From a virus: a DNA stretch of 42,786 nucleotides. The DNA lies in the IMG/VR virus record IMGVR_UViG_3300032092_000070, positions 1 to 42,786 of that record. The stretch is one strand, 5' to 3'. The translations under genes and the position numbers were made by a program. The notes under the pieces were generated by a model, which saw nothing but the letters and a program-made list of their open reading frames with translations, did not search any database and was not told the origin of the DNA. This document shows positions 1-42,786 of this stretch, one piece after another (position 1 is the stretch's first letter; every line of letters starts with the position of its first letter).

Positions 1-174
1 CACTATAGACAAGGTATCCATATCCTTTGCCTTGATGCTCTGGAGTAACTTCGGATTTTTCAATAGACACCTCATCTCCAAATCTTTCAAATCGAATGTT
101 TGCAACGACCTCTCCTTGTTTATCTCTTAAAGTAAGACCCTCTTGACCCATCCCTCCCTTGATTTCACCATAAA
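1..174. repeat. Left copy of the terminal repeat (circularisation overlap)
   Basis: Bases 1-174 match 42613-42786 in the same orientation except at 128 (t, versus c at 42740) and 170 (a, versus c at 42782). The first difference is silent (both Leu codons on the minus strand). The second changes a Tyr codon here to a TAG stop in the right copy. The simplest reading is the overlap of a circular or circularly permuted genome, giving a unit of about 42,612 bp. The mismatches lie near a contig end and may be population variants or end errors. A genuine duplication of the GNAT-coding segment is the alternative. Confidence 0.85.
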
Positions 175-3100: not shown

Positions 3101-6100
3101 TTCTCCATCTGCCTTAACTATACCGAGCATTTGGTGCAGAACATTTCTACGCATCGCACCCTTGCCTGTGCCATCTTCCAATAAGATTGAAGACTCAACT
3201 CTGGTCTTATCGGATGAAGCCTTAGAAGCGTTGCTGAGGTATCTGAAGAAGTCAGCCTCCATTGCCGCTCTGTCGTTGTTCCAGAGTTGACGAATGGCTG
3301 AATCGCTCCACAGGACATCCGCTCTGCCGTCAATAACAGCCTTATCAAGCGTGTGGAACAGGGCGTACATCTTGCCGTCCTTGCCGACCTTGAAGTCAAC
3401 ATCCAGAAGTACAGCCGCACGATTCTTGAACGGAACATCTGAACCAACGAGACGAGGCCATGCATAATCTCCTATTTGTGCCGTGCGACCAAGATAGCCA
3501 AAGTTGATTACATTAGAGCCATTGCCGTCTAAGATATTGTAGGCGTTCTGAATCTTGTCCACCCAAGCCCTATCGATGAGTCCAGACTGAACCATAGCCT
3601 CCATCGCTTCTGGTGACAGACGACCAGACAAATTACCTTCGCCATCAACAACAAGTCCTTGTCGATACTTTGGGTCGAGTCCAGAAAGAATCTTGTAGAT
3701 TTCCTTTCCGATACGAACTTGTTCTTGGACGACCTTACGCTGAGGAGAGCGAACTAGGTTGCCATTGGAGTCTCTAGTAACCGAAAGTCCACGGATTCCG
3801 TTGTTGCGGATAAATGTTTCTCTAGCCTCTGGAGACAGGCGACCAATATCAAAACTGCCCTGTCTATTCGCCATAGCCGTAGCCCTAACGAAGTCCCGCA
3901 TAAACAGGTCAAGAGCCTTGTTCTTCGTTCTGATGCCGTCCTTTTCAAACGCTTGGAAGATGTACTTGTTTGTAGCAGGGTCGAAGTTAAAGTCTGGATT
4001 GATGCCCTTTATCTTAGAACGCCAGAAGTCAAGGAAGCCCTGCTTGGCATTGCCCATAATTTCACGCATAGCACCAAGTTCGCCACCTCTAAACAAGAAG
4101 TCTACTGGCTTGTCATTGATAAACGCACCAAAGTAATAGGAGCCAAATTCCTCAAGAAGACCCTCAAGCGTATCCCTTGTGTCCAAGGAAATCTTGTTGG
4201 TAGAGCCTCTTGACTCATACTCCTTCATTGCCATCTCAAGACGCTGGGCTTCGTTTTTTGCTTCTGGGCTATTCTTGCCGTGCAAGGCATCAATATAACG
4301 CTGGAAGAACTGCTTTACTTGAGATGAACTGACGGAGGGCTTCTCAATCATCTTTCCGTTTGCATCGAACTTACCAAGCAAGTTTTGACCAAGTCTGTCG
4401 ATGAAGTCTGGCTTCATAACAGAATCCATCATAATAGCGTGGAATAGTTCGTGCGGTGCTGTTTCTTTGCCGAACTGGTTAAGGTTTATGTGGATTTCAA
4501 CCTGTCCAGTTGAGTCTCTTCTGAAGACGAATCCCTTGGCATTATTGTACTGTTTAGATGTCATCTCGACATCCTTAAGCCTAGACGGACGCATATTGCC
4601 GTCCTTGTCAAAATAACCTTCTGTAGCCAACTTATCCTTAAGCAACTTTCCACGCTCGCTGAGTTGTCCATTGACAGTCTCGTCCTTAAGGAACTGACGA
4701 ATCATCTCGTTTGCTCTGGTCTTGTTTCCAGAATCAAACATAGCATTCACACGGGCTACATTAGCCTCAGCATAGTTTAAGTTTCCATAGAACTCGTACG
4801 CCTTTTTTCCTCCGAAAATATTTTGAAGTTCTGGCGTGTTAGCCTTATCTATAGCCAAGAAAACGGCTTGCTTCTGTTCAGCACTAAGTCTGAAGAACTG
4901 CTTACGCATAGCGTGGTCTTGCGGAAGACCCTGCATATACGCTATTAACTTTTTGCTGTCGCCATCAAATCTATTTCCAAGCGTTGATAGGAACGAGAGA
5001 GCCTTTGCTCTTTCCGCTCTATTTGCACCAAAGTCTGGAAATAACGCCAAAGGTTCAATGAGACGACCAGTTGTAGGGTCTATTTTTTGGCTTAACAGCC
5101 AAGCCATATGCTCAACTTCACTTCTAGCAACAAACTTTGCGTTTGGAGCCAACACATCAATTCCAGTAATAATGCCGTCAACTTGGGCGATTAAATCCCT
5201 GTTGCCAGATAACTCAGCGGTCTTGGCGAAAGCCTCAAACGCAGAAGCCTTATCTGGGTCAATCTTCTTGAGAGCCTCAATGACTAGATTACGCTGAACA
5301 GCAATTCTGTCGTATAATCTAGCGTTGCCAACATCAGCAACAACAGCACCAAGTCCAGCACCAACAGTACCTAAGGCAAGACCAGCACCAGCACCGCTAG
5401 CCGCACCTTCTTCTCCAGCGGAAAGGTAACCAAGACCAGCACCGATAGCCATACCTTCGCCAGCACCTTTAGCCAAGTCAGCGGAATAAACGAACAATGG
5501 GTCAACCTTATCTAAGACATTAAGAAGAGCCCTAGCGTGTTTAGAAAGCGGAACTCCAGCCTTGTCAGCATCACGCAGAGCCTGTCCAGCATACGACAAA
5601 ACGCCCCGCCCTTGTGCAGATTGTTTGCTAATCTGCTCTCCAATCATCGACAGAGTTTCGCCAACTCCTCTGGCTGTTGTAGAGCCAACCATAGCCCCAG
5701 CGATGTTACCAACAAGAGGCAATCCAACAGTTCGTCCCTCAAGAGCCGCTGAAGCGGAATACCATCCATACATCTGAGCCGTTGTTCTGGCTTCAGCCGC
5801 TGGCATCCCAGTTACAGTTTCAAATGCCGTGCCAGCCTTTTCTAATCCAAAGTCAATTGTGTTTCTTGTGGCAGTACCCAAGAACTCAATAGGGGCTCCA
5901 ACGCCCCACTTGATAGCACCACCCAGAACCTTACGCTGAATTTCTGAGGCTCTAGCAGAAGCCTTTGCTAAGCCCTCTCCCATTCCAACAAGTCTAGCAC
6001 CTTTAGCGGCAATATTACCAAAAGGCACAAACAATGTAGGGTCTGCAATATAGGACATAACCTGCGTCATCTCTGGGTTGATGATATCCTTATCCATCAG

Positions 6101-6679
6101 TATTGTATCCTGCCCAGTAGCAAGACGCATAGAATGCACATTGAACGCTTGTGCATCCATAAACTGCTGGAACTCTGCTTGCTCATCATCTCCGTTGGCT
6201 GAAAGGGCATTCTTAACTCTGAAGAAAACGCTAGTAGGGTCTTGCGACTGAGCCGCCATACCATACAAACTTCTAGTTCCCTGTGTAAAAGCCTCGATTA
6301 ACGATGGTGTAAATTTAGCCAAAGCACCAGTAGGGTCATCAGCAATTGACCCACCAGCCTTCATAATCTCGTCAAACACAGCACCAGCGGCTTGACCCAT
6401 AGTATCGATAATATCCGTTTCCTTGTTTTTTATGTGAGCCTTGTATAACCGATACTGGTCAAGATTCATATTGAACACTTCACCTTTTGCGTTCTTTTCC
6501 TGCATCGCCCTGTAGATATCATCCCCAGTTGGGGCGGCTGTTATCTGCTGTCTAGCCGCCTCACGCTCCTCTGGTGGCAACTCTGCCAGCAAAGCCTCCA
6601 ACTCGCCATCAACCCCTTCGGTTGGCTGTGCAGTTGGTAATTTAGCGTATATCTTTTTTTGGTCGTATAGTTCAGCCAT
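1..6679 (-). CDS. Giant polyvalent ejection protein, N-terminal 2,226 residues (continues across the join into 39701-42786)
   Basis: The frame is open from ATG at 6679 to the left window edge and rejoins the frame at 42612-39701, giving about 3,196 residues if circular. Visible parts: a Gly/Ala-rich hydrophobic stretch near residues 406-449, possibly membrane-inserting; a zincin metallopeptidase motif HELFH at residues 743-747 (4439-4453); an ADP-ribosyltransferase-like domain, with HGT at about 1562 and a late GHDGVIF strand near 1880; and a GNAT-like domain with an FRGQKLA loop near 2040, followed by a second GNAT-like domain at the join. Short [FHY]QP[AS]E linkers recur near 1243, 1948 and 2135. 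Mixed effector modules of this kind define the phage 'polyvalent proteins'. The start overlaps the upstream stop (TAATG). Its place after two internal-virion-type genes matches T7 gp16, so it is probably packaged and ejected with the DNA. That role is inferred. Confidence 0.85.
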   Translation of the reverse strand, partial: MAELYDQKKIYAKLPTAQPTEGVDGELEALLAELPPEEREAARQQITAAPTGDDIYRAMQEKNAKGEVFNMNLDQYRLYKAHIKNKETDIIDTMGQAAGAVFDEIMKAGGSIADDPTGALAKFTPSLIEAFTQGTRSLYGMAAQSQDPTSVFFRVKNALSANGDDEQAEFQQFMDAQAFNVHSMRLATGQDTILMDKDIINPEMTQVMSYIADPTLFVPFGNIAAKGARLVGMGEGLAKASARASEIQRKVLGGAIKWGVGAPIEFLGTATRNTIDFGLEKAGTAFETVTGMPAAEARTTAQMYGWYSASAALEGRTVGLPLVGNIAGAMVGSTTARGVGETLSMIGEQISKQSAQGRGVLSYAGQALRDADKAGVPLSKHARALLNVLDKVDPLFVYSADLAKGAGEGMAIGAGLGYLSAGEEGAASGAGAGLALGTVGAGLGAVVADVGNARLYDRIAVQRNLVIEALKKIDPDKASAFEAFAKTAELSGNRDLIAQVDGIITGIDVLAPNAKFVARSEVEHMAWLLSQKIDPTTGRLIEPLALFPDFGANRAERAKALSFLSTLGNRFDGDSKKLIAYMQGLPQDHAMRKQFFRLSAEQKQAVFLAIDKANTPELQNIFGGKKAYEFYGNLNYAEANVARVNAMFDSGNKTRANEMIRQFLKDETVNGQLSERGKLLKDKLATEGYFDKDGNMRPSRLKDVEMTSKQYNNAKGFVFRRDSTGQVEIHINLNQFGKETAPHELFHAIMMDSVMKPDFIDRLGQNLLGKFDANGKMIEKPSVSSSQVKQFFQRYIDALHGKNSPEAKNEAQRLEMAMKEYESRGSTNKISLDTRDTLEGLLEEFGSYYFGAFINDKPVDFLFRGGELGAMREIMGNAKQGFLDFWRSKIKGINPDFNFDPATNKYIFQAFEKDGIRTKNKALDLFMRDFVRATAMANRQGSFDIGRLSPEARETFIRNNGIRGLSVTRDSNGNLVRSPQRKVVQEQVRIGKEIYKILSGLDPKYRQGLVVDGEGNLSGRLSPEAMEAMVQSGLIDRAWVDKIQNAYNILDGNGSNVINFGYLGRTAQIGDYAWPRLVGSDVPFKNRAAVLLDVDFKVGKDGKMYALFHTLDKAVIDGRADVLWSDSAIRQLWNNDRAAMEADFFRYLSNASKASSDKTRVESSILLEDGTGKGAMRRNVLHQMLGIVKADGETYLNKPIAEIPYGIRHSVTTFNVDGISNMRVSSGSRWDVVPQNAFRDLSRNFQPSEMSREQTPNGSIISHPLGYRFTERNGKVHAFDENGNRIGSYDDIYKASEAAKKHKESNTAGIIESINKTTSEQVKRGAMFQVLERSQRDMAIRDGDVFGVPQMRAFISGIENIIRQSREEYVLDKAEVEMVEGSDAFYQRLLQKNLELLAQHYNNVSRYDQVLANFERIKQETEEASALNSLAYRRGEISAKEYTERGEQLTQIFKTALKEKNAADPDIFSVTEDRIARQQLTLLQTFLSTYAEGEWKQQLINGQVPKLSEIGINELNRFAKKHIESYKNDSTTGLPEVISSIYSDEYNQQFQTGVPFVTIATHGTSSVDLMLGRDFRQDKLGSKHAIFSSQNGVFFAGQQSTSVTYSKKTSSGGITLEDLAQRHSKEFKDAFDALRFHTEMTLDEILTMLIVNERGTAYDASKKFFIKTKDGYAIDTALEYVFMQVTGLNFRSEEVTKKIEDTVLSYTGKTLSELKEYTANQKDNEVGKGRALRTALRQVRREILRDVFEYGSSSSLEMFAGIGKDKKTNAPKLSVYEAEKEGGGLGYSMAKIISSNFTMLDMLRKDIGFDAGAFEISGEMKDAWSPHYEGVRNSIDANSERIKNEFKNVPMELRAAIRMDNPLVVEGRKDYSEYHLKDIMKPAMDAGHDGVIFRNMRDGGKFDNIYVVFKNHMDSKIMTLDTTFDEQGVPRGNDANGNKVRYGKELGLRHQPSEGDAGGGRVYDQNSNQFKFGFIGKWAEENQDKIKDKNIQFVKRKDGSYRITMTDNSGKTQKVGQITAMIDESSVVAGEGVAELSSNIDPKFRGQKLANVLYSEMAERLRSMGIKYVDGTIVNKEGVPVQVRNTVIGQTYYKGNNKPAFIEDAAKKIQALQSVYPSKGVGVYNELDPKARYQPAEGGRTYTKKQKNGEFIGRWSEEVPHLKKGLKLFYGEIKGGMGQEGLTLRDKQGEVVANIRFERFGDEVSIEKSEVTPEHQGKGYGYLVYS

Positions 6680-15540: not shown

Positions 15541-16569
15541 TTAGGAGGCGAAGTCGAAGACCCCGAAGGCGAGCGGGTTGTAGACGCAGAGTCCAGCAAC
15601 GGCTTCGATGAGGCGAGCCTCACCACCACCAGCGTTGGGCAGAGCAGTCACACCAGCGACATTGCCGCCATAGCGAACTTCAACTTGGTCGAACGGGATG
15701 ACATAACCAGCGAAGGTTGAGCCAACGCCAGCCGACACTCTGAGGAAGTGCGAAGGGTGCAGACGGAGTTTACCGAAGTCGCCTTCAAACACATCGACAG
15801 AGGAGATGTAGGACTGGGAGTCAGACTCTCTGTTGAGGGTGCGGATGGCTGTCATCGGGGCTGTGCCTGTGCCTTGGGTTGAGGTGTAGGCGAGGTTCGT
15901 GAACGCTCTCTTGAGGGCAGAGCCGCAAAGGAGGTCGAAGTCACGATACTGACCAGTCTGTGTGTAGATGCCTGTGAGGACATTCTGGACAGTCACTTCA
16001 GTCAGATTGGCTGTGCCAACAGACGAGCGGTTGGCGGCAGGGGTAGCGAACTGGGTGTCGTAAGGCAGGACTGTGTCAACAGAGCCCGAAGGAGCGAGCC
16101 ACTTGTCGAGACCACGGGTGATGTACGGAACTGTGCCGTTGTCCAGTTGGGCTCCCTGCGTACCGCAGAAAGTGGACTCCATATCACGCTTGAGGGCTTG
16201 GATGCCCTTGGCGACATTGTTGGCGAGTTCGTCACGGACACCAGCGACTGTGGAGATGTCCTGTGTCAGAGGCGACACACGGACGGCTCTGCGGAAGATT
16301 TGGATGTAGTTGCTGAGTTCAGCACGATAGACTTGGGCTCCATCCTTGACATAGTTTTCGTAGGTGGTGACATCCGTGCCATCGACTGTACCAGTTGTCT
16401 TGGGAGTCGGAAGGCGGTCAGCCTGCCATCTGAAAAGGGTATTGCCAGGTTTTGAGCCCTTCTTAGCCATCGATGTGAAAGGAGTATCCTTAGCATCGAC
16501 CAGCGAGATGAGGTCAGCGAGTTCTTCTCTCTTACCAGATGAGAAGGAAGGTTCTGTGAGATTTGCCAT
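15541..16569 (-). CDS. Major capsid protein, 342 aa (SU10/DUF5309-like)
   Basis: The N-terminal region VDAKDTPFTSMAKKGSKPGN followed by FRWQADRLP matches the style of the SU10-type (DUF5309) HK97-fold capsid family. The region LKRDMESTFCGTQGA near residue 125 is the spine-helix segment typical of that family. The length of 342 residues is normal. It follows the acidic scaffold-like gene by 20 bases. Codons here are richer in G/C than in the distal tail genes, as is common for a highly expressed capsid gene. No Shine-Dalgarno sequence is seen; the start is preceded by an A/T-rich stretch. Confidence 0.85.
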   Translation of the reverse strand: MANLTEPSFSSGKREELADLISLVDAKDTPFTSMAKKGSKPGNTLFRWQADRLPTPKTTGTVDGTDVTTYENYVKDGAQVYRAELSNYIQIFRRAVRVSPLTQDISTVAGVRDELANNVAKGIQALKRDMESTFCGTQGAQLDNGTVPYITRGLDKWLAPSGSVDTVLPYDTQFATPAANRSSVGTANLTEVTVQNVLTGIYTQTGQYRDFDLLCGSALKRAFTNLAYTSTQGTGTAPMTAIRTLNRESDSQSYISSVDVFEGDFGKLRLHPSHFLRVSAGVGSTFAGYVIPFDQVEVRYGGNVAGVTALPNAGGGEARLIEAVAGLCVYNPLAFGVFDFAS

Positions 16570-20190: not shown

Positions 20191-20359
20191 TTTTTATAAA
20201 ATTGATTAAATCGTCACGGAAGTATCGTTTATGACCGCCCTTGGTGGTATAAGTTCTTACAATTCCATCTATAGCAAGGGACTCTAACTTGCGTCTTGTC
20301 AAGCCCATAAGTAACATTGCCTTTGAGCGTGTTAATAGGATAGGGTAGTAGACCTCCAT
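20177..20359 (-). CDS. Small MerR/excisionase-type winged-helix protein, 60 aa
   Basis: The ATG at 20359 shares bases with the large-terminase stop (TAATG). The sequence has the MerR-like pattern of a helix-turn-helix followed by a GGHKRYFRDDLINFI wing. The start at 20359 is preferred to the upstream in-frame ATG at 20518, which would duplicate terminase coding sequence. It overlaps the portal gene. A structural-gene neighbourhood suggests a packaging-accessory or regulatory DNA-binding role; no excision function is implied because no integrase was found. Confidence 0.7.
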   Translation of the reverse strand: MEVYYPILLTRSKAMLLMGLTRRKLESLAIDGIVRTYTTKGGHKRYFRDDLINFIKNEHN

Positions 20360-21966
20360 TAGTAACTGCCCCCACCCGTACCTTTTAAGGATTCCGAACT
20401 CAGATACTCTGGGTTCATAGTGATTAAGTAGCGGAGGCAGTCGATGGGGTCTTTGGTTGCTCCCTTTTCCCCATCCATCCCAGTCCATTCCTTTAGACAA
20501 TAGATAAGATTTTGACATTCTTCTGAAATATAGAGTTTAGGTTTGTTTAGCGGTGAAAGTTCTTGCGAGTAGTCGTAGGCAAAGCCGTCATTAATCATTG
20601 ATACGCCCTGTTCGATACGGATGCCAGCGGCTGGCTGAAAATGCATAGGGACTTCCCCGTCATCCAACATATCAATCAAGGTAACGCCCCCGTCTTCGGT
20701 CACAGCCTTGGAGCCGCCAGCCCTAGGGTCGATATAGCGTTCATTTATGACCTCTTCGCCCTCTAGGGACAGGATTAGGCTCTTATATTCCGCAAGAGAG
20801 CGTCCAGCCCCGTTACGCTGTGCAGTACCCATCTTCCCATCGGGGTCAGCAGAAGGTAATGCCCATTCACCTTCAGACGAATCTGGAAACTCTCGATATA
20901 CATAGAGGCAACCATCCGAAGATGCTCGTAGCCATAGCATAAACCAGTTTCTAGCCCCAGCAGGGTCAACAACCATATAATTAGTTCCGTCTCTCGGTAC
21001 ATTATCCGACTTGATGATGTTGATTTCTGGGTTGAATCTGGGGAATTGGTTACCGCTGATATTGTCTGCCCATCCGTACGCTCTAATTTTGATTTCATAA
21101 GGTTTCTTGCCCAACAGGGTTTTCTTTAACTGTTCAAACGGGTTGTATGGGTTCAGTTCGCTATGGAACCACATAACCCCAGCGGGACGGACATAGGACT
21201 TCGCCTTATACGGCATTGTACCCCTAGGGCATCCCATCACATTGATATTGTCTGGCAAAAGCGGTGACGGCTTGTGTTCGATTATCTTAGCCCCGCTGAT
21301 GTACTCCTTGACTACGGAACTATAGCCCGTGATTGGCGTGAAGGTCACGATTAACTTACCGCTACGGGTCACGATGCGGTATCTGAGCGTCTCAATCCAG
21401 TCCAGAGGCACAAGTTCATCGCACCAGATGAGGTCTACTTCGCCACCTTCGATGACATCACGCTTCTGGGCGTAATTCATAAAGATGCATTGGCTCTTGT
21501 TCGGCAGAATGAAGGTGTTATCGCTGAATCCGTTCTTCTGCGTGTACGATACATTCTGAATCTTGTTTTTTCGCAGTTCCTTGAACTCGGATGGCAAATA
21601 CTTATGGATAATCGGCTGTTGCATCTGGATGCTCGACTGATTTGTCGTGTGCAAGCACCAGACTCTGGCGTTTTCCATATTGCAGAGCGTCTGGACGACA
21701 CGCTTTGCCGCCCATTCCGTCTTGGAGGCTCGATTGCCCCCTAAAATTAGTACCTCATTGTTAACCTTCAGCAGTTCGTCCGCTTCTTTCCAATGCGGGA
21801 GGTCGAATCCGTGCCTATAAGGGTCTGTTTTTTCCGCTAGAATCTTATCCTCACGAAGATTCAAGATTTCCAGCGTCCTTTCCTCACCGACCTTGTCCAC
21901 CAACCGCTTTATATCGTCCGAAGTGGGCGTTATAAGAATTGGGTGGGGTGTCGGGGCGAAAGCCAT
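20359..21966 (-). CDS. terL: Terminase large subunit (packaging ATPase-nuclease), 535 aa
   Basis: Walker A GGNRASKT at residues 76-83 (the deviant form common in phage terminases) and a Walker B ending in DE at 183-184. A coupling/arginine-type region TFTPITGY lies near 209. The C-terminal RNase H-like nuclease domain shows MVVDPAG with D334 and YIDPRAGG with D413, likely metal-binding acids. Length and order fit the large terminase that drives DNA into the portal and cuts concatemers. It is followed by the winged-helix gene and portal and preceded by a 52-base gap. Confidence 0.95.
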   Translation of the reverse strand: MAFAPTPHPILITPTSDDIKRLVDKVGEERTLEILNLREDKILAEKTDPYRHGFDLPHWKEADELLKVNNEVLILGGNRASKTEWAAKRVVQTLCNMENARVWCLHTTNQSSIQMQQPIIHKYLPSEFKELRKNKIQNVSYTQKNGFSDNTFILPNKSQCIFMNYAQKRDVIEGGEVDLIWCDELVPLDWIETLRYRIVTRSGKLIVTFTPITGYSSVVKEYISGAKIIEHKPSPLLPDNINVMGCPRGTMPYKAKSYVRPAGVMWFHSELNPYNPFEQLKKTLLGKKPYEIKIRAYGWADNISGNQFPRFNPEINIIKSDNVPRDGTNYMVVDPAGARNWFMLWLRASSDGCLYVYREFPDSSEGEWALPSADPDGKMGTAQRNGAGRSLAEYKSLILSLEGEEVINERYIDPRAGGSKAVTEDGGVTLIDMLDDGEVPMHFQPAAGIRIEQGVSMINDGFAYDYSQELSPLNKPKLYISEECQNLIYCLKEWTGMDGEKGATKDPIDCLRYLITMNPEYLSSESLKGTGGGSY

Positions 21967-22017: not shown

Positions 22018-22416
22018 TCAGTACTTTCCATTGAACCTAGGGTGACGGACAACGCACCAGCGATTGCCATCCCATCTGACATCCACAGGCATACCCTTAT
22101 GGAACTTAGATGAGTCCTTACAAAGCACATTATGGAAGACACCATCGATGGTGACCCCCATAACCTTTGGATTCTTGAACTTGTTGAACACAATGCCACG
22201 CTTCTTCTCTGGAGGATTGATGTTCTCTGGCTCCTTGAAGCCGATGTTCTCCTTAAGACGGGCAATTCCAGCCTCCGTCCACTCGACCTCCCACATATGC
22301 TGTGGCTTTCTGGATTCAATTCTAGTCCAGTCAACGCCCTCCTCGTATGATGACCTAAATTCCTTGAGGATATCACGGGCAAGACCTAGTGCAATAGAAA
22401 GTTGTTTTTCTCTCAT
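22018..22416 (-). CDS. Unknown protein upstream of terL, 132 aa
   Basis: The ATG at 22416 (MREKQ...) is preferred over an in-frame start at 22476, whose extra 20 residues would come from a control-like region with repeated ATCGACACAT motifs. Residues 1-60 are helical. Residues 75-132 form a beta-rich C-terminal domain ending PRFNGKY. The position suggests small terminase, but the sequence lacks the usual helix-turn-helix, so I leave it unnamed. Confidence 0.65.
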   Translation of the reverse strand: MREKQLSIALGLARDILKEFRSSYEEGVDWTRIESRKPQHMWEVEWTEAGIARLKENIGFKEPENINPPEKKRGIVFNKFKNPKVMGVTIDGVFHNVLCKDSSKFHKGMPVDVRWDGNRWCVVRHPRFNGKY

Positions 22417-22467: not shown

Positions 22468-22488
22468 CCATATCAAATTTTTTTACAG

Positions 22489-22561
22489 TAGGGATGGAGG
22501 GAATCGAACCCTCGACTTAGCCCTTATAAAGAGCCCACTCTGACCGCTGAGTTACACCCCC
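22489..22561 (-). tRNA. tRNA-Ile (UAU)
   Basis: Full cloverleaf: a 7-bp acceptor (GGGGGTG with CATCCCT, two wobble pairs), an ACTC/GAGT D stem, an anticodon loop TTTATAA giving UAU, and a T arm with GGTTCGATTCC. It decodes AUA. It is the last tRNA of the cluster in transcription order. Confidence 0.92.
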
Positions 22562-22570
22562 CTGTCAAAA

Positions 22571-22643
22571 TACGGCAAGCGGGGGTCGAACCCGCAACAT
22601 CCAGTTTGGAAAACTGACACTCTGCCAATTGAGTTACTGCCGT
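22571..22643 (-). tRNA. tRNA-Gly (UCC)
   Basis: Acceptor ACGGCAG with TTGCCGT, D stem ACTC/GAGT, anticodon loop TTTCCAA (UCC), T arm GGGTTCGACCC. It decodes GGA. Confidence 0.92.
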
Positions 22644-22661
22644 GAAAGAACTGTTAAAGTA

Positions 22662-22742
22662 TGCGGAAGGCGGGACTTGAACCCGCAAGCCTTTGGGCAA
22701 CTGATTTTAAGTCAGTCGTGTATACCATTTCACCACATCCGC
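22662..22742 (-). tRNA. tRNA-Leu (UAA)
   Basis: Anticodon loop CTTAAAA in a 5-bp stem ACTGA/TCAGT gives UAA (TTA codons), with the long variable arm expected of a leucine tRNA. Acceptor GCGGATG/CTTCCGC has one mismatch. Confidence 0.92.
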
Positions 22743-22748
22743 TAAGAT

Positions 22749-22821
22749 TGGAACCGACTGGACTTGAACCAGCAACCAACCGCTTAAAAGGCGGCTACTC
22801 TGACCATTGAGTTACGATTCC
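22749..22821 (-). tRNA. tRNA-Lys (UUU)
   Basis: Acceptor GGAATCG/CGGTTCC, anticodon loop CTTTTAA (UUU) on a GCCGC/GCGGT stem, T arm GGTTCAAGTCC. It decodes AAA. Confidence 0.92.
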
Positions 22822-22828
22822 TAAAGGG

Positions 22829-22899
22829 TGGAGGCGGGGAGAATCGAACTCCCATTGCCCCGATGCAAACGGGGTTTCCTGCCATTGAAAGAAGCCCCC
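22829..22899 (-). tRNA. tRNA-Ala (UGC)
   Basis: Anticodon loop TTTGCAT in a strong CCCCG/CGGGG stem gives UGC (GCA codons). Acceptor GGGGGCT with CGCCTCC has one mismatch at the inner pair, and the D stem has three pairs. It starts one base from tRNA-Gln. Confidence 0.88.
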
Positions 22900-22900
22900 A

Positions 22901-22971
22901 TAGACCCGCAGGGAGTCGAACCCCGACAGAGAGAACCAAAATCTCTAGTGCTACCATTACACCACGGGTCT
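22901..22971 (-). tRNA. tRNA-Gln (UUG)
   Basis: Perfect acceptor AGACCCG/CGGGTCT, anticodon loop TTTTGGT in stem AGAGA/TCTCT gives UUG (CAA codons), T arm GGTTCGACTCC. Confidence 0.92.
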
Positions 22972-22977
22972 GTGAAA

Positions 22978-23049
22978 TCACCGAGACAGGACTTGAACCT
23001 GCAATCCCCTGCTCCCAAAGCAGGTGCGATGCCATTACGCTACTCGATG
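22978..23049 (-). tRNA. tRNA-Pro (UGG)
   Basis: Acceptor CATCGAG/CTCGGTG, anticodon loop TTTGGGA in stem CCTGC/GCAGG gives UGG (CCA codons), T arm GGTTCAAGTCC. Confidence 0.92.
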
Positions 23050-23054
23050 TACAA

Positions 23055-23126
23055 TCGACCCACTAGGAATCGAACCTAGATAACCCGCTTAGAAGGCGGG
23101 TGTTCTATCCGTTGAACTATGGGTCG
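23055..23126 (-). tRNA. tRNA-Arg (UCU)
   Basis: Perfect acceptor CGACCCA/TGGGTCG, anticodon loop CTTCTAA in stem CCCGC/GCGGG gives UCU (AGA codons). Confidence 0.92.
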
Positions 23127-23131
23127 TAAAG

Positions 23132-23216
23132 TAGAGGGGGTCGGATTTGAACCCACGAGGCTTTTACACCTAACAGTTTTCAAGACTGCCGCAATAGACC
23201 ACTCTGCCACCCCTCT
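23132..23216 (-). tRNA. tRNA-Ser (UGA)
   Basis: Acceptor AGAGGGG/CCCCTCT, anticodon loop CTTGAAA gives UGA (TCA codons), with the long variable arm typical of serine tRNAs. Confidence 0.9.
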
Positions 23217-23220
23217 AAAT

Positions 23221-23477
23221 GATGCCGTTCCTTCGTCTTATTCAGGTCTGTTCTTCGTTAGGTTGATATGGACGCACTAGCGGCATCCAAGGTACTTATG
23301 GCTTGATATCAAAGCCAACCGCTATCCTTGCATCGTCTCTGCATACCTACGGCATCGAGCCGCAAGCCTGTTCAGCCGTTACATACTGTATGCTTCATAG
23401 ACTTTGCTTTATTATCCTCCATAGAAGCCGTAGGACTGACACCTACTTTCGGAGTAATTACCTCCACGGCTTAGTTG
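23221..23477 (-). ncRNA. Structured non-coding stretch inside the tRNA cluster
   Basis: No gene, but many stems, several closed by exactly 7-nt loops: AAGCCGT/ACGGCTT (23425-23431, 23466-23472) encloses GTAGG/CCTAC and GGAG/CTCC. GGCTT/AAGCC lies at 23300-23316, inside AGGTA/TACCT (23290-23294, 23344-23348). GATGCCG/CGGCATC (23221-23227, 23281-23287) competes with GGACGC/GCATCC. Transcription with the tRNA operon seems likely. It lacks the conserved marks of tmRNA, RNase P RNA or a group I intron that I could look for by eye. It may be a new small RNA, or the remains of several decayed tRNAs. Confidence 0.45.
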
Positions 23478-23593
23478 GTGGGTGTGTGGGATTTGAACCG
23501 CACAGTCATAACTTATATATAATCTGGACACATACATTAGGCATTTACTCCTGTATATATTCGTTATGCCTAGCCACATTAGGCTAGCACCCA
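23478..23593 (-). pseudogene. Interrupted tRNA-like element
   Basis: The minus strand has a 5' acceptor TGGGTGC pairing with ACACCCA (6 of 7), a D arm GCCT/AGGC with a GG-containing loop, and a T arm with loop TTCAAAT in which one stem side has a bulged C, followed by CCA. The anticodon stem ATAAC/GTTAT is separated by about 50 bases instead of 7; part of that insert pairs as ATATATA/TATATAT. A 9-base repeat GCCTAATGT occurs in the D arm and again in the insert, suggesting duplication. It may be a dead tRNA or a tRNA needing processing. Confidence 0.45.
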
Positions 23594-23598
23594 AATGG

Positions 23599-23670
23599 AG
23601 CCTTGTGTTGGGATTGAACCAACGACCTACTGTTTACAAAACAGTCGCACTACCGCTGTGCTAACAAGGC
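23599..23670 (-). tRNA. tRNA-Thr (UGU)
   Basis: Perfect acceptor GCCTTGT/ACAAGGC, anticodon loop TTTGTAA in stem ACTGT/ACAGT gives UGU (ACA codons). First tRNA of the cluster in transcription order, 21 bases after the promoter candidate. Confidence 0.92.
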
Positions 23671-23794: not shown

Positions 23795-24185
23795 TTGCAA
23801 TACATCTCTGTCAACACGAATCGTACTAAATCGGTACAGCCGCCTCATTTCGCTTGACCACATACCCTTTATACTCCCTTAACAATCCCTCTTCTATAAG
23901 CCATAAGCCTACACCTTAAGCCTTATTGGGATAAAAAATTTATCTGGGGCTATCGGTTAAAACAAAGCCTAGCAAAAAGTAAAAGGACTCCCCCCCCCGT
24001 GGGGGTGGGTTCTATAATAATCTAGTAGAATTATAAAAGGACTATTATAAAAAGGATATTATAAAAGTATAAAAGGATTATAATAGAATTATATAAGGAT
24101 TATTATAAAAGTGTCCAATGGGACTGAACCCATCCCAATATAAAGATATTATATAATTATACTATAATGCAAAAAGGATATGAAT
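23795..24185. repeat. Non-coding A/T-rich repeat tract with flanking C9/G5 hairpin
   Basis: No gene. A run of nine C (23990-23998) followed by GT and five G makes a strong hairpin with T-rich sequence beyond it on the minus strand. From about 24011 to 24185 imperfect copies of ATAAAAGGAT and TTATTATAAAA alternate, giving an easily melted tract. A hairpin ATGGG/CCCAT with a 6-base loop at about 24117-24132 looks like a T-arm remnant. Together these suggest an origin or control region; nothing proves it. Confidence 0.4.
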
Positions 24186-36676: not shown

Positions 36677-36960
36677 TGACTCCAAGCAAGTACAAGGAAC
36701 TACAGTTCCTGTCCCAGAAGGGTGACTTAGATATCATCCCAAAGGGCTGGCTCACCCGCCAGCAGGTCTGTGCTTTATTTAAGAAGTCCCAAGTCACAAC
36801 CGACAAACTGCTCAAGCGTCTTCTGGACAAGAACCTAATCCAACGCAAGTTGTTCAGAGCCAGAATTAGGTCTGGGGTTCGACCCGTGCCTTACTTCTTT
36901 TTAACTGCCAGCGTAGCGTCAGCCAAAGCAAATCCAAGACAGCCAAGACGGAAACGCTAA
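36676..36960 (+). CDS. Winged-helix-type early protein, 94 aa
   Basis: ATG at 36676 overlaps the phosphoesterase stop (TGATG). Residues 20-55 form a helix-turn-helix (GWLTRQQVCALFKKSQVTTDKLLK) followed by a wing, then a basic C-terminal tail. The last 95 bases overlap the convergent spanin-like gene, an unusual arrangement. DNA binding likely; target unknown. Confidence 0.6.
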   Translation: MTPSKYKELQFLSQKGDLDIIPKGWLTRQQVCALFKKSQVTTDKLLKRLLDKNLIQRKLFRARIRSGVRPVPYFFLTASVASAKANPRQPRRKR

Positions 36961-37582
36961 TCAATATATACTTGAACCAGTCGCTGTCAAGTACCCAGAC
37001 TGACATCACCGCAAGCGACCCTCCTCCGATAAGGATTAACCCCCTAGTCTTCCACGGAGTAAAGGCTATTACAAGCAAGCCGCCTGTTGATACTGCAAGC
37101 CCCACGCAGGTAAGAAGCCAGAGAACCTTCTCCTTGAACTCACGCTTCTTCTCCTCAATCGCCAAGTCACGCTCAGCCTTGGCTTCATCTAGTTCTACCT
37201 CCCTATCCAAGACCATCTGGTAAAGCGTATCGGTCTCAGCGTCTACCTTCAATGCCTCTTCTTTGTCCTTCTTGACGGCTTTGGAGTCGTTTTCTTTAAC
37301 CATCCGAGCGTATCGTCCGACTGATTCGACTGACGGCTTGGCGACCCCAGAGAGCCTTGTTCCTTGCGATTCAATAATGTCCCTAGGTATTCCAGCAGGA
37401 AGGGAAGGAGCGACAGCCACGATTGCTGAGGCTGACTCCGAGACGATTTCCTCGACCCTTTGAATGTACTTGTCTTTTTCCTCATTGGTTAATGTAATAA
37501 CCTTAGGTTGCTCTGGAGTTACGCAACCAACCAAGTATCCAAATGCAAAGAAGATTGCTATGATTTGGAAACTATTGCTCAC
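36866..37582 (-). CDS. Lipoprotein with three C-terminal membrane segments, spanin-like, 238 aa
   Basis: The N-terminal signal ends in LVGC, with Cys20 the probable lipidated residue. A helical periplasmic-type region (residues 30-145) has EVELDEAKAERDLAIEEKK coiled coil, and three hydrophobic stretches lie near residues 152-175, 180-198 and 205-225. A lipid-anchored start with a membrane-embedded end is the plan of a unimolecular spanin, which would disrupt the outer membrane of a Gram-negative host. Three segments instead of one is odd. Overlaps the convergent gene. Confidence 0.6.
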   Translation of the reverse strand: MSNSFQIIAIFFAFGYLVGCVTPEQPKVITLTNEEKDKYIQRVEEIVSESASAIVAVAPSLPAGIPRDIIESQGTRLSGVAKPSVESVGRYARMVKENDSKAVKKDKEEALKVDAETDTLYQMVLDREVELDEAKAERDLAIEEKKREFKEKVLWLLTCVGLAVSTGGLLVIAFTPWKTRGLILIGGGSLAVMSVWVLDSDWFKYILISVSVLAVLDLLWLTLRWQLKRSKARVEPQT

Positions 37583-38478
37583 TTCTCAAACCACTTAGGA
37601 TTAAACTTTCTACGCATAGCATCAGTAATTTCTGGATGCAGGTCAGCGTTGTCTGGATGGTATCTTGCGATTGTCTCTAGGTCTGAATTAGAATATGTCC
37701 TGCCGTCAACAGTAGTTACTTCATCTTTCTTATAGACTTCTCCAGTTACAGGATTCTCAAAGTCTGCCTTCTGTCTTCTAACTTCAGATGTGACAAGAGG
37801 AACAATGCCAGCATAGTTCATAAATGTTCCAGCACCCCTAATGGCACTAGTAACTTCTGGTTGTTCAACTAAAGTATTTGCTATATGAGTTAAGTTTTTA
37901 GCGTGAGTTAATGGAGCAGTTTGAAAGAATGGTTTAGTGTAATCAAACTTAACATTGCTTTTTGGGGCTCCTCCTTCAAAGCCAACCCTGTTACCAGCAA
38001 AATAAGGAGTTGATGGAAACTCAGTAACCTTTAAACCTGTTTGATTCAACGGATTTACTCTTTCAAAAAATGTAGGATTTGCTTTTGGTGTTAACGCTTG
38101 CCAATGTCCGTATCGTGCATTGTTAGACCACTCTAAACCATTATGACCAGTACCGCTTGGCATATAGAGTTTGTTATTATCTAAGTTAAATCTTTTGCTG
38201 GCTTCTATTAAAACATTACTTACATTAGCCCTTCCTTTGTCTAATGAATTTCCAAGGAATTGAGTGGCTGGGGCTCCTTTTGCAAAGTAAGCATCACCTG
38301 TTGATGTTTCAATTCCTCTTATTTGACCAGTTCTAAGGATATCTTTGTAGACTGGCGGTGTTCCATCGTTAAGCCAATCAACGGAGATTCTATAACTTGA
38401 TGTATCTGGGATATCAATTCCCCACATACCTTTTTGATACGCCTCTGTTCTAAAGTTATTGTAAGAATATGGCTCCAT
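37579..38478 (-). CDS. Unknown late protein, 299 aa
   Basis: Coupled to the spanin-like gene (ATGA). Tyr/Asn/Pro-rich, apparently globular, with DGRTYSNSDLETIARYHPDN near the end and FNPKWFEK as tail. Codons are A/T-rich. Its place next to the holin-like gene suggests lysis or a virion-associated role. No family recognised. Confidence 0.6.
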   Translation of the reverse strand: MEPYSYNNFRTEAYQKGMWGIDIPDTSSYRISVDWLNDGTPPVYKDILRTGQIRGIETSTGDAYFAKGAPATQFLGNSLDKGRANVSNVLIEASKRFNLDNNKLYMPSGTGHNGLEWSNNARYGHWQALTPKANPTFFERVNPLNQTGLKVTEFPSTPYFAGNRVGFEGGAPKSNVKFDYTKPFFQTAPLTHAKNLTHIANTLVEQPEVTSAIRGAGTFMNYAGIVPLVTSEVRRQKADFENPVTGEVYKKDEVTTVDGRTYSNSDLETIARYHPDNADLHPEITDAMRRKFNPKWFEK

Positions 38479-38479
38479 A

Positions 38480-39394
38480 TTACTTTATAAAGAATCTAGA
38501 AATCTTTGAAAAGAAAGACCCATCATCTTGAGATGCTGGTTGAGGATTTGGATTACTTGCTGGCACATCTGGCTTTAACTGAGTATGACTGTATTCTGGA
38601 TAGTTATCTTTAATTGCTAAAGTTCTTAAAAACTGACGATGTTTATCAAGTTCTCTTCCTGTTAATGACTGTGGTTGATTTATATAATCCAATGTTGCTA
38701 GTTTGTTGTCAAACTCAACAGGTGGCAATGATGTATTCTCTCTTATGAACTGTTGTCTTAACGGGTTGCCTACCCCCCAAGGATTATAAGGATTTGAAAC
38801 TTGAAGGAATATAGGATAAGTAGGGTCTATTGTTTGAGCGTCATAAGCCTTTCCTGCCAACAACATTGCTCTTGAAGGTTGAAATGATTGATTGCCTTCG
38901 GCTGTAAACTGTGGTTTATAGTTCCACGATTCATATTCTTTTTTAGCATTTTCATTATAAGACCTAGATGCCAAGTCTCTTAATGATTCGTAATTTGTGG
39001 GTTTAAGAAGGTTAAATCTACCAGCAAGCAAGAAATTTCTATCAACAGGGCTAATTTCATCTATTGTTTTTATTCTCTTTTCATTTGAACCAAGACGAGA
39101 ATTGTAATCTTTTACTAATGCTTCATCTAAGTTGTCTTCATCATCAAACAATAAATTGTCTGGTATCCCGCTTCTAAATATAAGAGGGTCACTGTCAAGA
39201 ACCCTACCTATAACAAGGTCTTCGTAATATTCTTTTGCCCTGTCCTCTACTATGTGAGGGTTCGCTGTGTAATATTGAATTCCTCTATATGAATCTCTGT
39301 ATTTTTGTACTAAATCAGAAAGTTCTGGAACTTGCCATTCGTGTTCTTTGTCACGAAATGTAATTGGACTTGGTTTCTTTTTTTCTTCAGCCAT
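38480..39394 (-). CDS. Unknown late protein, 304 aa
   Basis: Contains FQPSRAMLLAGKAYD and TYPIFLQVSNPYNPW near residues 175-215, a strand-and-NP pattern that also appears in ADP-ribosyltransferase-like modules of polyvalent proteins, plus the QPS linker seen in the giant protein. It ends in a Pro-rich segment and FFSKISRFFIK. It may be a relative of one of the giant protein's modules; evidence is weak. Confidence 0.6.
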   Translation of the reverse strand: MAEEKKKPSPITFRDKEHEWQVPELSDLVQKYRDSYRGIQYYTANPHIVEDRAKEYYEDLVIGRVLDSDPLIFRSGIPDNLLFDDEDNLDEALVKDYNSRLGSNEKRIKTIDEISPVDRNFLLAGRFNLLKPTNYESLRDLASRSYNENAKKEYESWNYKPQFTAEGNQSFQPSRAMLLAGKAYDAQTIDPTYPIFLQVSNPYNPWGVGNPLRQQFIRENTSLPPVEFDNKLATLDYINQPQSLTGRELDKHRQFLRTLAIKDNYPEYSHTQLKPDVPASNPNPQPASQDDGSFFSKISRFFIK

Positions 39395-39395
39395 A

Positions 39396-39704
39396 TTATT
39401 CTTTTACTGTTTTGATAAATTTTTTTCTGATGATGTCAAACAATTCTGGAGCAATGCTACCAGCGACAGCAATGATTACGCTACGATACAGCGGAGCGAT
39501 GTCAGCCTCGTATAGTCCAAAGTAGCACAGCACACCAACGATACCGCCAGCGATAGCCTTCCTAGTCCAGATAGCCCAGACGAACTTCTCGTTGGTCAGT
39601 ATCAGACGGGCAATCATCCCAAGCATTCCTAGGATAGCCATCACCCAGCCAGTCCGCTTGAACTCCTCCACGACAGACTGGAGGGTTGGGTCATCGACAT
39701 TCAT
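39396..39704 (-). CDS. Holin-like membrane protein, 102 aa
   Basis: A helical N-terminus (residues 1-18), then three hydrophobic stretches (WVMAILGMLGMIARLIL, AIAGGIVGVLCYFGLY and SVIIAVAGSIAPELFDII) and a short basic tail, typical of holins of the LydA/class I type. The start overlaps the giant gene's stop (ATGA). Next to unknown and spanin-like genes, it would form a lysis cassette with the early endolysin. Confidence 0.75.
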   Translation of the reverse strand: MNVDDPTLQSVVEEFKRTGWVMAILGMLGMIARLILTNEKFVWAIWTRKAIAGGIVGVLCYFGLYEADIAPLYRSVIIAVAGSIAPELFDIIRKKFIKTVKE

Positions 39705-42700
39705 CGCTTAGGCTCCTCACGCTGGACTCTACGCTTAGCCTGTTCCTCGCTGTCGAAGACCCCGATGACAGCCTTGTACGGATTGTACACCCTGTACTTG
39801 CTACCAATCCTAGAGATGACGAAGCCAGCAGAGTTCTTGATGAGCGAGCCAGCAGTTGTCTGCTCAGCCTTCCAGTCTCTGAAGCCTTCAGCGGGTTGCC
39901 ACTTAAGACGCTCTTTGCCTTCTGGAATCAATGACGCTTCCTTTACATATCCGTAGGCTTCTCCGACTTGATTGCTACCAAGTTTTGTAGCACCTCCCTT
40001 TCTTGGTACTTCCTTCTTTTCCTTATTCAAGAATACATCAGTAACGTGGTTTGTCTTATCTGGAATAAGCATCCTAGGTCTAATCTTATTTCCATTTTCA
40101 TCACGCTGGACGATATGCCAAGGGTAACTCTTATGTCCATTCTCGGTCTTCTCAACCGATATCTTTCCTGTTACCTCGATATAAGCATAGACATAACTAG
40201 GGTCAACATTAGCCCTCTTGTCCGAAAGCATTAGACCAATAGCCTCACGAATACCAGTAGGTGCAAACTGAATCTTTTTCCCAAGCCTGTCAGCACCAAG
40301 GGCGTTTGAAATCTTTTCTATGTTCTTATGTCCAGACTCTCCATTTTCCGCAAGATGAGTGATGACATCCTTTACGAAATCTCCTCTTCTTTCAAATGTA
40401 GAATCAGAGACACCAAAAAACTTGCTGGCAATTTCAGCCTGTATAGCCTTCGCTGATTGAGTAGCGTTGAATTCTATTCCGTACTTTCTTCCAGAATCCT
40501 TGAGTGCATTTCTGAATTCCTCAAGGCTGATATAGCCTTGCTCAACAAAGTACTCAAGTATTCCCATTCCAGCCTTAGCACCTGTATGCGAGTTCAGAGC
40601 GTTCTCAAATGAGCCTCTTGTAAGCGAAAGATATGCAACTCCTCCGTTTTCTTTTTGTGCTTTCTCTAGATTTCTTGCTGTTGTTCTAGCCTTGGATTCC
40701 TTTGAGTTAGCCCAGATATCTCCGAACTTCGATACAAAGTTAAGACCTCCTTCTCCTTCGGCAAGAATTCTGCCGCTAGGAGTCTCAAGAGTACCAGTCA
40801 TCATTGTGTCTGGATTGTTGATTACGACAGCCTTTCCAGCCAACTCACGCTCATCAAATCCAAGCACGATATGACCAGAGTCAACCAACCGCTTGTTTAA
40901 TTCAGATTTTTCAAATCCATTCTGAACAAGAGCGGCATCTCTTTCCGCTGGCTGGAAGTTATATCTAGTATCCGTCTTTGAAAAGTCTCCGTAATTGCTA
41001 GAGGCTTTAACGCTGGCTGTTTCTTGAGGAATTACAATAGTTGGAGATTTTCTGCTAACAGAGTTATCTTGTATAACAATACTGTCGTATCCTTTTCTTA
41101 ATAGGTGTTCGTGGAAATCAATCCAGTTATCCATTCTCCAAGATTCACCAAACGGCTTAAGCATTGTTTGCTCCTTCTTCGGGCTCAACCAATTGCCAGT
41201 TGCTATCTCAAGCAAGAATCTATCAATGGATGTTCTTGGGTCTAATACATCGTGACCTTGTTCCTTGATGTTCTTGTTCCAGAACTCTTTTATAGCCTCA
41301 AACAGTTTAGGATTGGCTTGTTCCAACTTGTGTGCGGAAAGAAGATTTGCAGGGTTTTTGCTCTTAACATAATACATATCAGCGTTGCCTCTGCTAGCAA
41401 CCTTTTGTGCGTCTTCATTGAGACCGCTGATATCAGTGTGACCGCCTCCAGCATATCTCTTAGCCGCAGATTCATCGGCAATAAAGAAGTTCGGGTCTGT
41501 CGTTAATGAACGCTCATTTCTATCAACTACACTTCTTTCTGAAAACCTATCAAAAGAGCGGACATTAACTCCTTTGTAAACAGTAGTGACAAAACCCTTG
41601 TCGTAATTTGAAGCCTTATTAGAGTCTTCTTCGCTTCCAATAAACTTAAGTCTTTCTGCCCAACTTCTAAAGTTTTTAGTATCTGGATATCTCCATAATT
41701 CTCTTGGTTGATTTTCTCTTGCTTTAATTGCCCTCGCTGTATTCCAGTCAGTTTCGCCTTCCGCTGGCTGGAACTTAACAGGCAAGTTGTCCCTAGAACC
41801 ATAACCTAATTGTTTTTTAAGTTCCGAGTTTGCTCCAAAATAAAACGCATCAACATCTTCTGGGTTAACGCCAAGTTTCTTTGCTATCTTGTTCTTGTAT
41901 TCATACACTTCGCTCATACTGCTGAAGTGGTCAGAGTATCTAGAAGTTATGCTAAACTTGCCACGCTCTAATAATTTTCCTTTAGAATCATATCTTGGCT
42001 TTTCATATCTTCCATAGACTGGGGGCTTATCTTCGTCGTACTGATATGTCTCCATCCATTCGCTATGCGTATAGCCTGTGTTATCAGAGGTTGACGCTGG
42101 ATTCTTAGTAAGAATTCCCTTGTTAATGTCATCAACCCAAAGTCCAGAATTTTCAATTTCCCATCTGTTTAACTCTTTGGTTTTTCTAATTTGTGGATAA
42201 TGACCAATGTCAGTCCAGTCTAGATTATAATCTGCTGGATTGCTTAAATATCCTCTGGCATTCTTATCTCCAGTAATCTCGTCATTGCCAACAAATGGTC
42301 TACGAACAAGGAGACCTTCTTGGTCTTTGTATTCAAAGATATTTTTCTTGGGCTTCCAATAGTCGTCCCCGCCTTGGTATTCGGAAGGTTGGTAGCGGGC
42401 TTTTTGATGCAGATAAGACTCTACATCTATTTGTTTATTTCCTTCTTGGTCGAGTCTTTTATCTAGTATTTCAGTTCTTGAATCTTTCTCTCCTATTCTA
42501 AGATTCTCAACATCGATAAGACGCTTTCTAATCTTTATTGGTCTTTCGGCATTGTCGATTACCATTCCAGAAACAGTCTTAACGCCTTCGCTTCTCAGCC
42601 TTTCAAGCAATTCACTATAGACAAGGTATCCATATCCTTTGCCTTGATGCTCTGGAGTAACTTCGGATTTTTCAATAGACACCTCATCTCCAAATCTTTC

Positions 42701-42786
42701 AAATCGAATGTTTGCAACGACCTCTCCTTGTTTATCTCTCAAAGTAAGACCCTCTTGACCCATCCCTCCCTTGATTTCACCCTAAA
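39701..42786 (-). CDS. Giant polyvalent protein, C-terminal part (full residues about 2177-3196 from ATG-equivalent 42763)
   Basis: Within the right-edge repeat the frame carries a TAG at 42782-42784 (Tyr in the left copy), so as written the frame opens at ATG 42763 and encodes 1,020 residues. In the circular reading it is the tail of the 3,196-aa protein that starts at 6679. Local residues: GNAT-like loop PEHQGKGYG at about 30-45; an ART-like domain opening with VYKGV near 390 and closing with YDSIVIQD near 560; an unassigned polyvalent module around 610-930; and repeated QP[AS]E linkers near 120, 330, 602 and 955. The product ends at the holin overlap. Codons are A/T-rich. Confidence 0.85.
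42613..42786. repeat. Right copy of the terminal repeat (circularisation overlap)
   Basis: Matches bases 1-174 with two differences (see the left copy). The difference at 42782 makes a TAG in the frame of the giant gene only in this copy; all four sequence bases after it are at the window edge. Confidence 0.85.

Follow-up and report, generated by a model that had tools for sequence, protein, structure and literature searches.

An all-U34 tRNA array and a previously undescribed tRNA-shaped RNA in an IMG/VR virus genome

The locus described here lies on an IMG/VR virus record of 42,786 bases (G000), the whole of which was analysed and is referred to as the window. Its first and last 174 bases are identical at 172 of 174 positions, so the record probably represents an entire genome whose ends overlap. 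Close relatives are present on many IMG/VR contigs. A DNA-level search of window 1–25000 against deposited phages gave no match, and the capsids of deposited phages are at most 33% identical to the major capsid gene. The gene used as the terminase marker has a weak PHROG match and was assigned from its sequence and position. A Pfam search with the longer ORF of the small gene adjoining the tRNA array returned no match. A giant open frame on the minus strand spans both record ends (1–6679 and 39701–42763), with 2226 codons open at the left end and 1020 amino acids at the right end. As the two halves overlap in the terminal repeat, the encoded protein may exceed 3000 amino acids. The right part of this frame has a weak acetyltransferase match.

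Table 1. Features of the tRNA array and of the genes used as markers.
Feature	Position	Strand	Basis
Major capsid protein	15541..16569	-	PHROG 1328, 8e-50
Large gene used as terminase large subunit marker	20359..21966	-	sequence and position
Small conserved gene (MREKQLSIALGLARDIL...) directly downstream of the array	22018..22416	-	homologues adjoin the array in relatives
tRNA-Ile(UAU), reads AUA	22488..22561	-	ARAGORN; Rfam
tRNA-Gly(UCC), reads GGA	22571..22643	-	ARAGORN; Rfam
tRNA-Leu(UAA), reads UUA	22662..22742	-	ARAGORN; Rfam
tRNA-Lys(UUU), reads AAA	22749..22821	-	ARAGORN; Rfam
tRNA-Ala(UGC), reads GCA	22826..22900	-	ARAGORN; Rfam (44.7 bits, lowest score)
tRNA-Gln(UUG), reads CAA	22901..22971	-	ARAGORN; Rfam
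tRNA-Pro(UGG), reads CCA	22978..23049	-	ARAGORN; Rfam
tRNA-Arg(UCU), reads AGA	23055..23126	-	ARAGORN; Rfam
tRNA-Ser(UGA), reads UCA	23131..23216	-	ARAGORN; Rfam
Rest of the Thr-Ser gap, ~260 bases	23217..23476	-	no annotation
Type A tRNA-like RNA	23477..23594	-	covariance models R1 and R2, covariation, folding
tRNA-Thr(UGU), reads ACA; transcribed first in the array	23596..23670	-	ARAGORN; Rfam

ARAGORN places exactly ten tRNAs at 22488–23670, all on the minus strand and all ten with U34 (anticodons UAU, UCC, UAA, UUU, UGC, UUG, UGG, UCU, UGA and UGU). The Rfam tRNA model RF00005 independently matches the same ten at 44.7–69.5 bits, all above the Rfam cut-off. An earlier note on this DNA had listed ten intact tRNAs with these anticodons, and the scans changed none of them. 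A T-arm-like stretch outside the array, at 24105–24140 on the minus strand (GATGGGTTCAGTCCCAT then TGGACACT), suggests a tRNA remnant.

Such uniformity is unlikely to arise by chance. Across 80 unrelated IMG/VR tRNA loci, which were drawn by a T-loop/CCA pattern and are thus not a perfectly random sample, U34 accounts for 204 of 465 tRNAs (43.9%). At that background rate the chance of ten U34 tRNAs is 0.439^10 = 2.6e-4. Of the 30 unrelated arrays that have five or more tRNAs, not one consists of U34 tRNAs alone, the highest share being 86%. Among 49 deduplicated related loci, which are partly fragments and are not independent of each other, U34 is found in 219 of 242 tRNAs. The remainder comprise 18 tRNAs with CAU, four Asn-GUU, one Ser-GCU and others lacking a clear call. 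The CAU tRNAs form two families, and the commoner one occupies the same terminal slot as Ile-UAU. No related array carries both Ile-UAU and a CAU tRNA, and ATA use is equal in loci with and without Ile-UAU. Position, non-overlap and equal ATA use point to, without proving, an AUA-reading Ile tRNA in this slot, as in T4. The terminal-slot CAU tRNA has neither of the C4-G69 and C5-G68 pairs, which are TilS determinants in E. coli. In two relatives (L008 and L072) the array is rearranged, since more than 1.1 kb separates tRNA-Thr from the other tRNAs; this interval encodes a relative of the small gene that adjoins the array in the window.

The codons read by the array are used unevenly along the genome. 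The late/tail set comprised the minus-strand ORFs from 2–22476 and 36866–42610 and the early set 16 ORFs between 24756 and 36676, these classes being inferred from gene content (capsid and terminase versus ERF, AAA/DnaA-like and nuclease genes) and orientation. Taken together, the ten decoded codons have a frequency of 184 per 1000 in the presumed late genes, compared with 73 per 1000 in the early set. The four other NNA sense codons (GTA, GAA, CTA and CGA) serve as an internal control. In late/early log odds, each of the ten decoded NNA codons lies above all four undecoded ones (exact one-sided p = 1/1001), and the contrast persists when each NNA codon is set only against its NNT or NNG partner. 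Given this control, the pattern is not plain AT enrichment. The signal belongs mainly to the tail-side and right-end genes, most of which place about 0.25–0.55 of the relevant residues in decoded codons, as the major capsid (0.16), portal-like (0.14) and terminase (0.19) genes make hardly more use of these codons than the early genes do. The proposal in the earlier note that A-ending codons are frequent in late genes and rare in early ones thus holds for the presumed late set as a whole and specifically for the decoded NNA codons; its term "late genes" was too broad, as it takes in these three poor genes.

Only a hint of the host was obtained. When 84,980 species genomes were scanned with the terminase, two relatives were found, both in Verrucomicrobiota metagenome-assembled genomes (MAGs), one assigned to Pedosphaera (51%) and one to Opitutae (33%). 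At only 13 kb, the Pedosphaera contig concerned may be a phage binned in error. With that phylum alone compared, a relative at E <= 1e-20 was present in 11 of 387 Verrucomicrobiota genomes. These matches hint at a host in Verrucomicrobiota. In sampled stretches of four genomes of this putative host phylum, the decoded codons amount to 67 per 1000 (Pedosphaera MAG), 48 (Opitutae MAG), 44 (G130) and 163 (G275). They are rarer than in the phage late genes in three of the four, and the early genes resemble the Pedosphaera MAG, the Opitutae MAG and G130.

The relatives allow tRNA content to be compared with codon use, and 31 of them have complete arrays. In this sample TCA makes up 19% of Ser codons where Ser-UGA is present and 9% where it is absent. 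When nearest relatives by terminase identity were paired, TCA was higher in the member with Ser-UGA in 11 of 12 pairs that differ in this tRNA (Wilcoxon p = 0.0005), and the contrast survives correction for GC3. Leu-UAA gives a weaker result, with p = 0.013 after GC3 correction and only 3 of 13 raw differences positive. The Gly, Lys, Pro and Ile tRNAs show no significant co-variation with codon use in the relatives, nor does the number of U34 tRNAs predict overall decoded-codon use among them.

The gap between tRNA-Thr and tRNA-Ser (23217–23595) holds a second kind of element, the type A RNA of 118 nt on the minus strand; the earlier note mentioned neither this RNA nor the ~260 bases beside it. 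It is a previously undescribed tRNA-shaped RNA, and the existence of a family of such RNAs is well supported. The fold has a 5-bp acceptor stem and a T-like arm; a 6-bp hairpin without a linker takes the D position, and the middle arm is long and has no 7-base anticodon loop. Folded alone, the sequence forms a cloverleaf with z = -3.4 against dinucleotide shuffles. The covariance model R1, built from six relatives, matches the window (E = 8e-4) and further loci. The model R2 matches the window and 24 relatives, including the largely different sequences of L024, L040 and L073. It matches L062 only at E = 0.1, and one extra match in L024 (E = 5.4) overlaps a tRNA; T4 and control viral loci gave no match to R2. 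The same architecture is found on largely different sequence in L024, L144, L040 and L073, and wherever checked the copies lie in or beside the tRNA array.

Covariation bears out this structure. Changes on both sides are seen in 32 of the 35 pairs, and pairing is kept in 93% of cells. On an alignment fitted to the model, which favours the structure, the score for covariation is 0.569; shuffles give 0.159 (sd 0.012), and controls in which partners were shifted by one to three columns give 0.062 at most. The outer helices read by hand agree (CATAAC/GTTATG, CGTTCT/AGAACG, CTATAT/ATATAG and GATG/CATC). RNAalifold found no structure in a raw MAFFT alignment of 19 divergent copies because that alignment was poor, a problem solved by building covariance models from a tight subgroup.

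Searches of Rfam and of deposited phages gave no match to the type A RNA. At 23477–23594 neither Rfam (RF00005) nor ARAGORN reports a tRNA, and neither reports a tmRNA. Most members carry AGG...AATG in the apical loop followed by a short frame to a stop. This ATG is absent in L073, L040 and L144, and as it is not conserved a tmRNA-like reading was dropped. Without an anticodon loop, the type A RNA should not decode. From its position and strand, it probably shares a transcript with the tRNAs of the array.

Other small elements surround the type A RNA here and in relatives. In L082, the closest relative, other elements take the place of the rest of the gap (23217–23476), which may hold further tRNA-like pieces in the window. 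On the minus strand this stretch contains a 46-base element resembling a tRNA that lacks the D arm (AGCCGTGGAGG...CCTACGGCT), as well as a stem of 7 bp, GATGCCG/CGGCATC; no copy of either was seen in L082. Further recurring modules in the arrays of relatives were termed B (7 distinct copies), C (9), D, E and F. Module B (L009:653-722, L024:2404-2473) and module F (L082, in the gap after tRNA-Thr) are of tRNA size and cloverleaf-like, with middle loops of 5 and 3 bases respectively and no 7-base anticodon loop. Module C is a hairpin of ~50 bases (L048:774-826, L050:3740-3792, L096:1104-1156) whose stem shows compensatory changes (CTGTCCT/AGGACAG, CCACCCC/GGGGTGG, CCCTCCC/GGGAGGG) and whose loop, GCCCTCTNNACRATGGTTTCTCT, is conserved.

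The ten genes are probably a codon-supply tRNA array. Bacteria rely chiefly on U34 tRNAs to read the NNA codons of these boxes, so an array selected for NNA codons is all-U34. Under this proposal, the tail-side, right-end and giant-ORF genes would be those served, using A-ending codons far more than the early genes and, if the Verrucomicrobiota hint is right, also more than the host. The tRNAs would be expressed, charged and limiting. The array of T4 is of the same kind, and the array here also carries a non-decoding tRNA-like RNA, probably from the same transcript. The suggestion that the U34 set was selected to serve A-ending codons, made in the earlier note, gains from the specificity for decoded NNA codons and from the co-variation of Ser-UGA with TCA; it finds no such backing in the Gly, Lys, Pro and Ile tRNAs. 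Weighing further against codon supply, the genes for capsid, portal-like protein and terminase make little use of decoded codons though probably highly expressed, the number of U34 tRNAs does not predict overall use of these codons in relatives, and G275 already uses them at a high rate within the candidate host phylum.

It is quite unlikely that the U34 bias is incidental or reflects the targets of anticodon nucleases, with phage tRNAs replacing those of the host. Nuclease escape (PMC10264068) and loss of host tRNAs (PMC12482277) have been described for other phages, and the array includes Lys-UUU, the target of PrrC. Against this, a general replacement set would be expected to contain other anticodons too, but the array supplies NNA readers alone. 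With the Pedosphaera MAG as a stand-in for the host, which is a candidate and not established, the anticodon loops are identical in 5 of 7 shared isoacceptors, Gly differing at one position and Gln at two, and so there is no sign of systematic nuclease-escape changes. Replacement of cleaved host tRNAs, which the earlier note had offered as a second explanation, gained no support from this comparison; it also predicts neither the decoded-codon specificity nor the Ser-UGA/TCA co-variation. An AT-shifted mutation bias in part of the genome could produce both the tRNA set and the codon use with no selection on decoding, and the lower GC3 of the late genes (0.37–0.45 versus 0.65 in the early genes) is in its favour. 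This reading is very unlikely, as the four undecoded NNA codons lack the enrichment seen in the ten decoded ones, decoded NNA also increases against NNT, and the Ser-UGA contrasts remain after GC3 correction.

For the type A RNA, it would be most improbable that a decayed tRNA is all that is seen. Its place in a tRNA array, its tRNA-like acceptor and T arms and its missing anticodon loop are what decay might leave; yet decay would break pairs, and here nearly all have changed on both sides, with a score far above that of the shuffles and the same architecture kept on largely different sequence. The RNA might serve as a decoy or sponge for a host factor that binds tRNA, for example a defence enzyme directed at tRNAs. 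This is an unlikely reading, consistent with tRNA-like ends without an anticodon, with a sequence that changes fast while its shape is kept, and with the variation of the other modules between relatives. A wider reading, doubtful but possible, would see the array as two systems, namely NNA-supplying tRNAs and a new family of tRNA-shaped, non-decoding RNAs acting on the tRNA machinery. As a guess, such RNAs could, for instance, act as decoys for defences that target tRNAs or as ligands of a host protein that binds tRNA.

The clade offers a natural experiment on why phages carry tRNAs, as single U34 tRNAs come and go between close relatives and a single genome allows decoded NNA codons to be compared with undecoded ones. 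The type A RNA provides a second example, independent and widely sampled, of unexplained non-tRNA RNAs like those of the T4 tRNA cluster, with covariation sufficient to define the structure and to design tests.

The eight tRNAs of T4 (NC_000866; Arg-UCU, Ile-CAU, Thr-UGU, Ser-UGA, Pro-UGG, Gly-UCC, Leu-UAA and Gln-UUG) match eight of the ten here in amino acid, and seven of them also in anticodon. Lys-UUU and Ala-UGC are additional in the present array, Ile is read by UAU here and by CAU in T4, and the phage is an unrelated virus of ~42.6 kb. With these matching isoacceptors in T4, the principle of the array was already known. The T4 cluster too contains stable RNAs that are not tRNAs: species 1 and 2 (RNAC and RNAD; 139 and 119 bases), of unknown role (PMC3014915) and with late expression shown by Northern blot (PMC9697503). 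The fold of species 1 includes a T-like arm and one long arm. By comparison, these RNAs are the nearest analogue of type A, being similar in size, in place within a phage tRNA cluster and partly in anatomy; R1 and R2 do not match T4 (L164), so by these models type A is not a homologue. For the Shigella phage Sf14, late genes have been argued to match the phage's own tRNA pool more closely than that of the host (PMC12482277), although its 26 tRNAs cover 19 amino acids and are not restricted to U34. The tRNA array of cluster C1 mycobacteriophages has been explained by anticodon-loop mutations that evade nucleases (PMC10264068), whereas no such pattern of loop mutations is seen here against the candidate host. 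The U34 array therefore belongs to a known kind, and what is new is the array and the tRNA-like RNA together.
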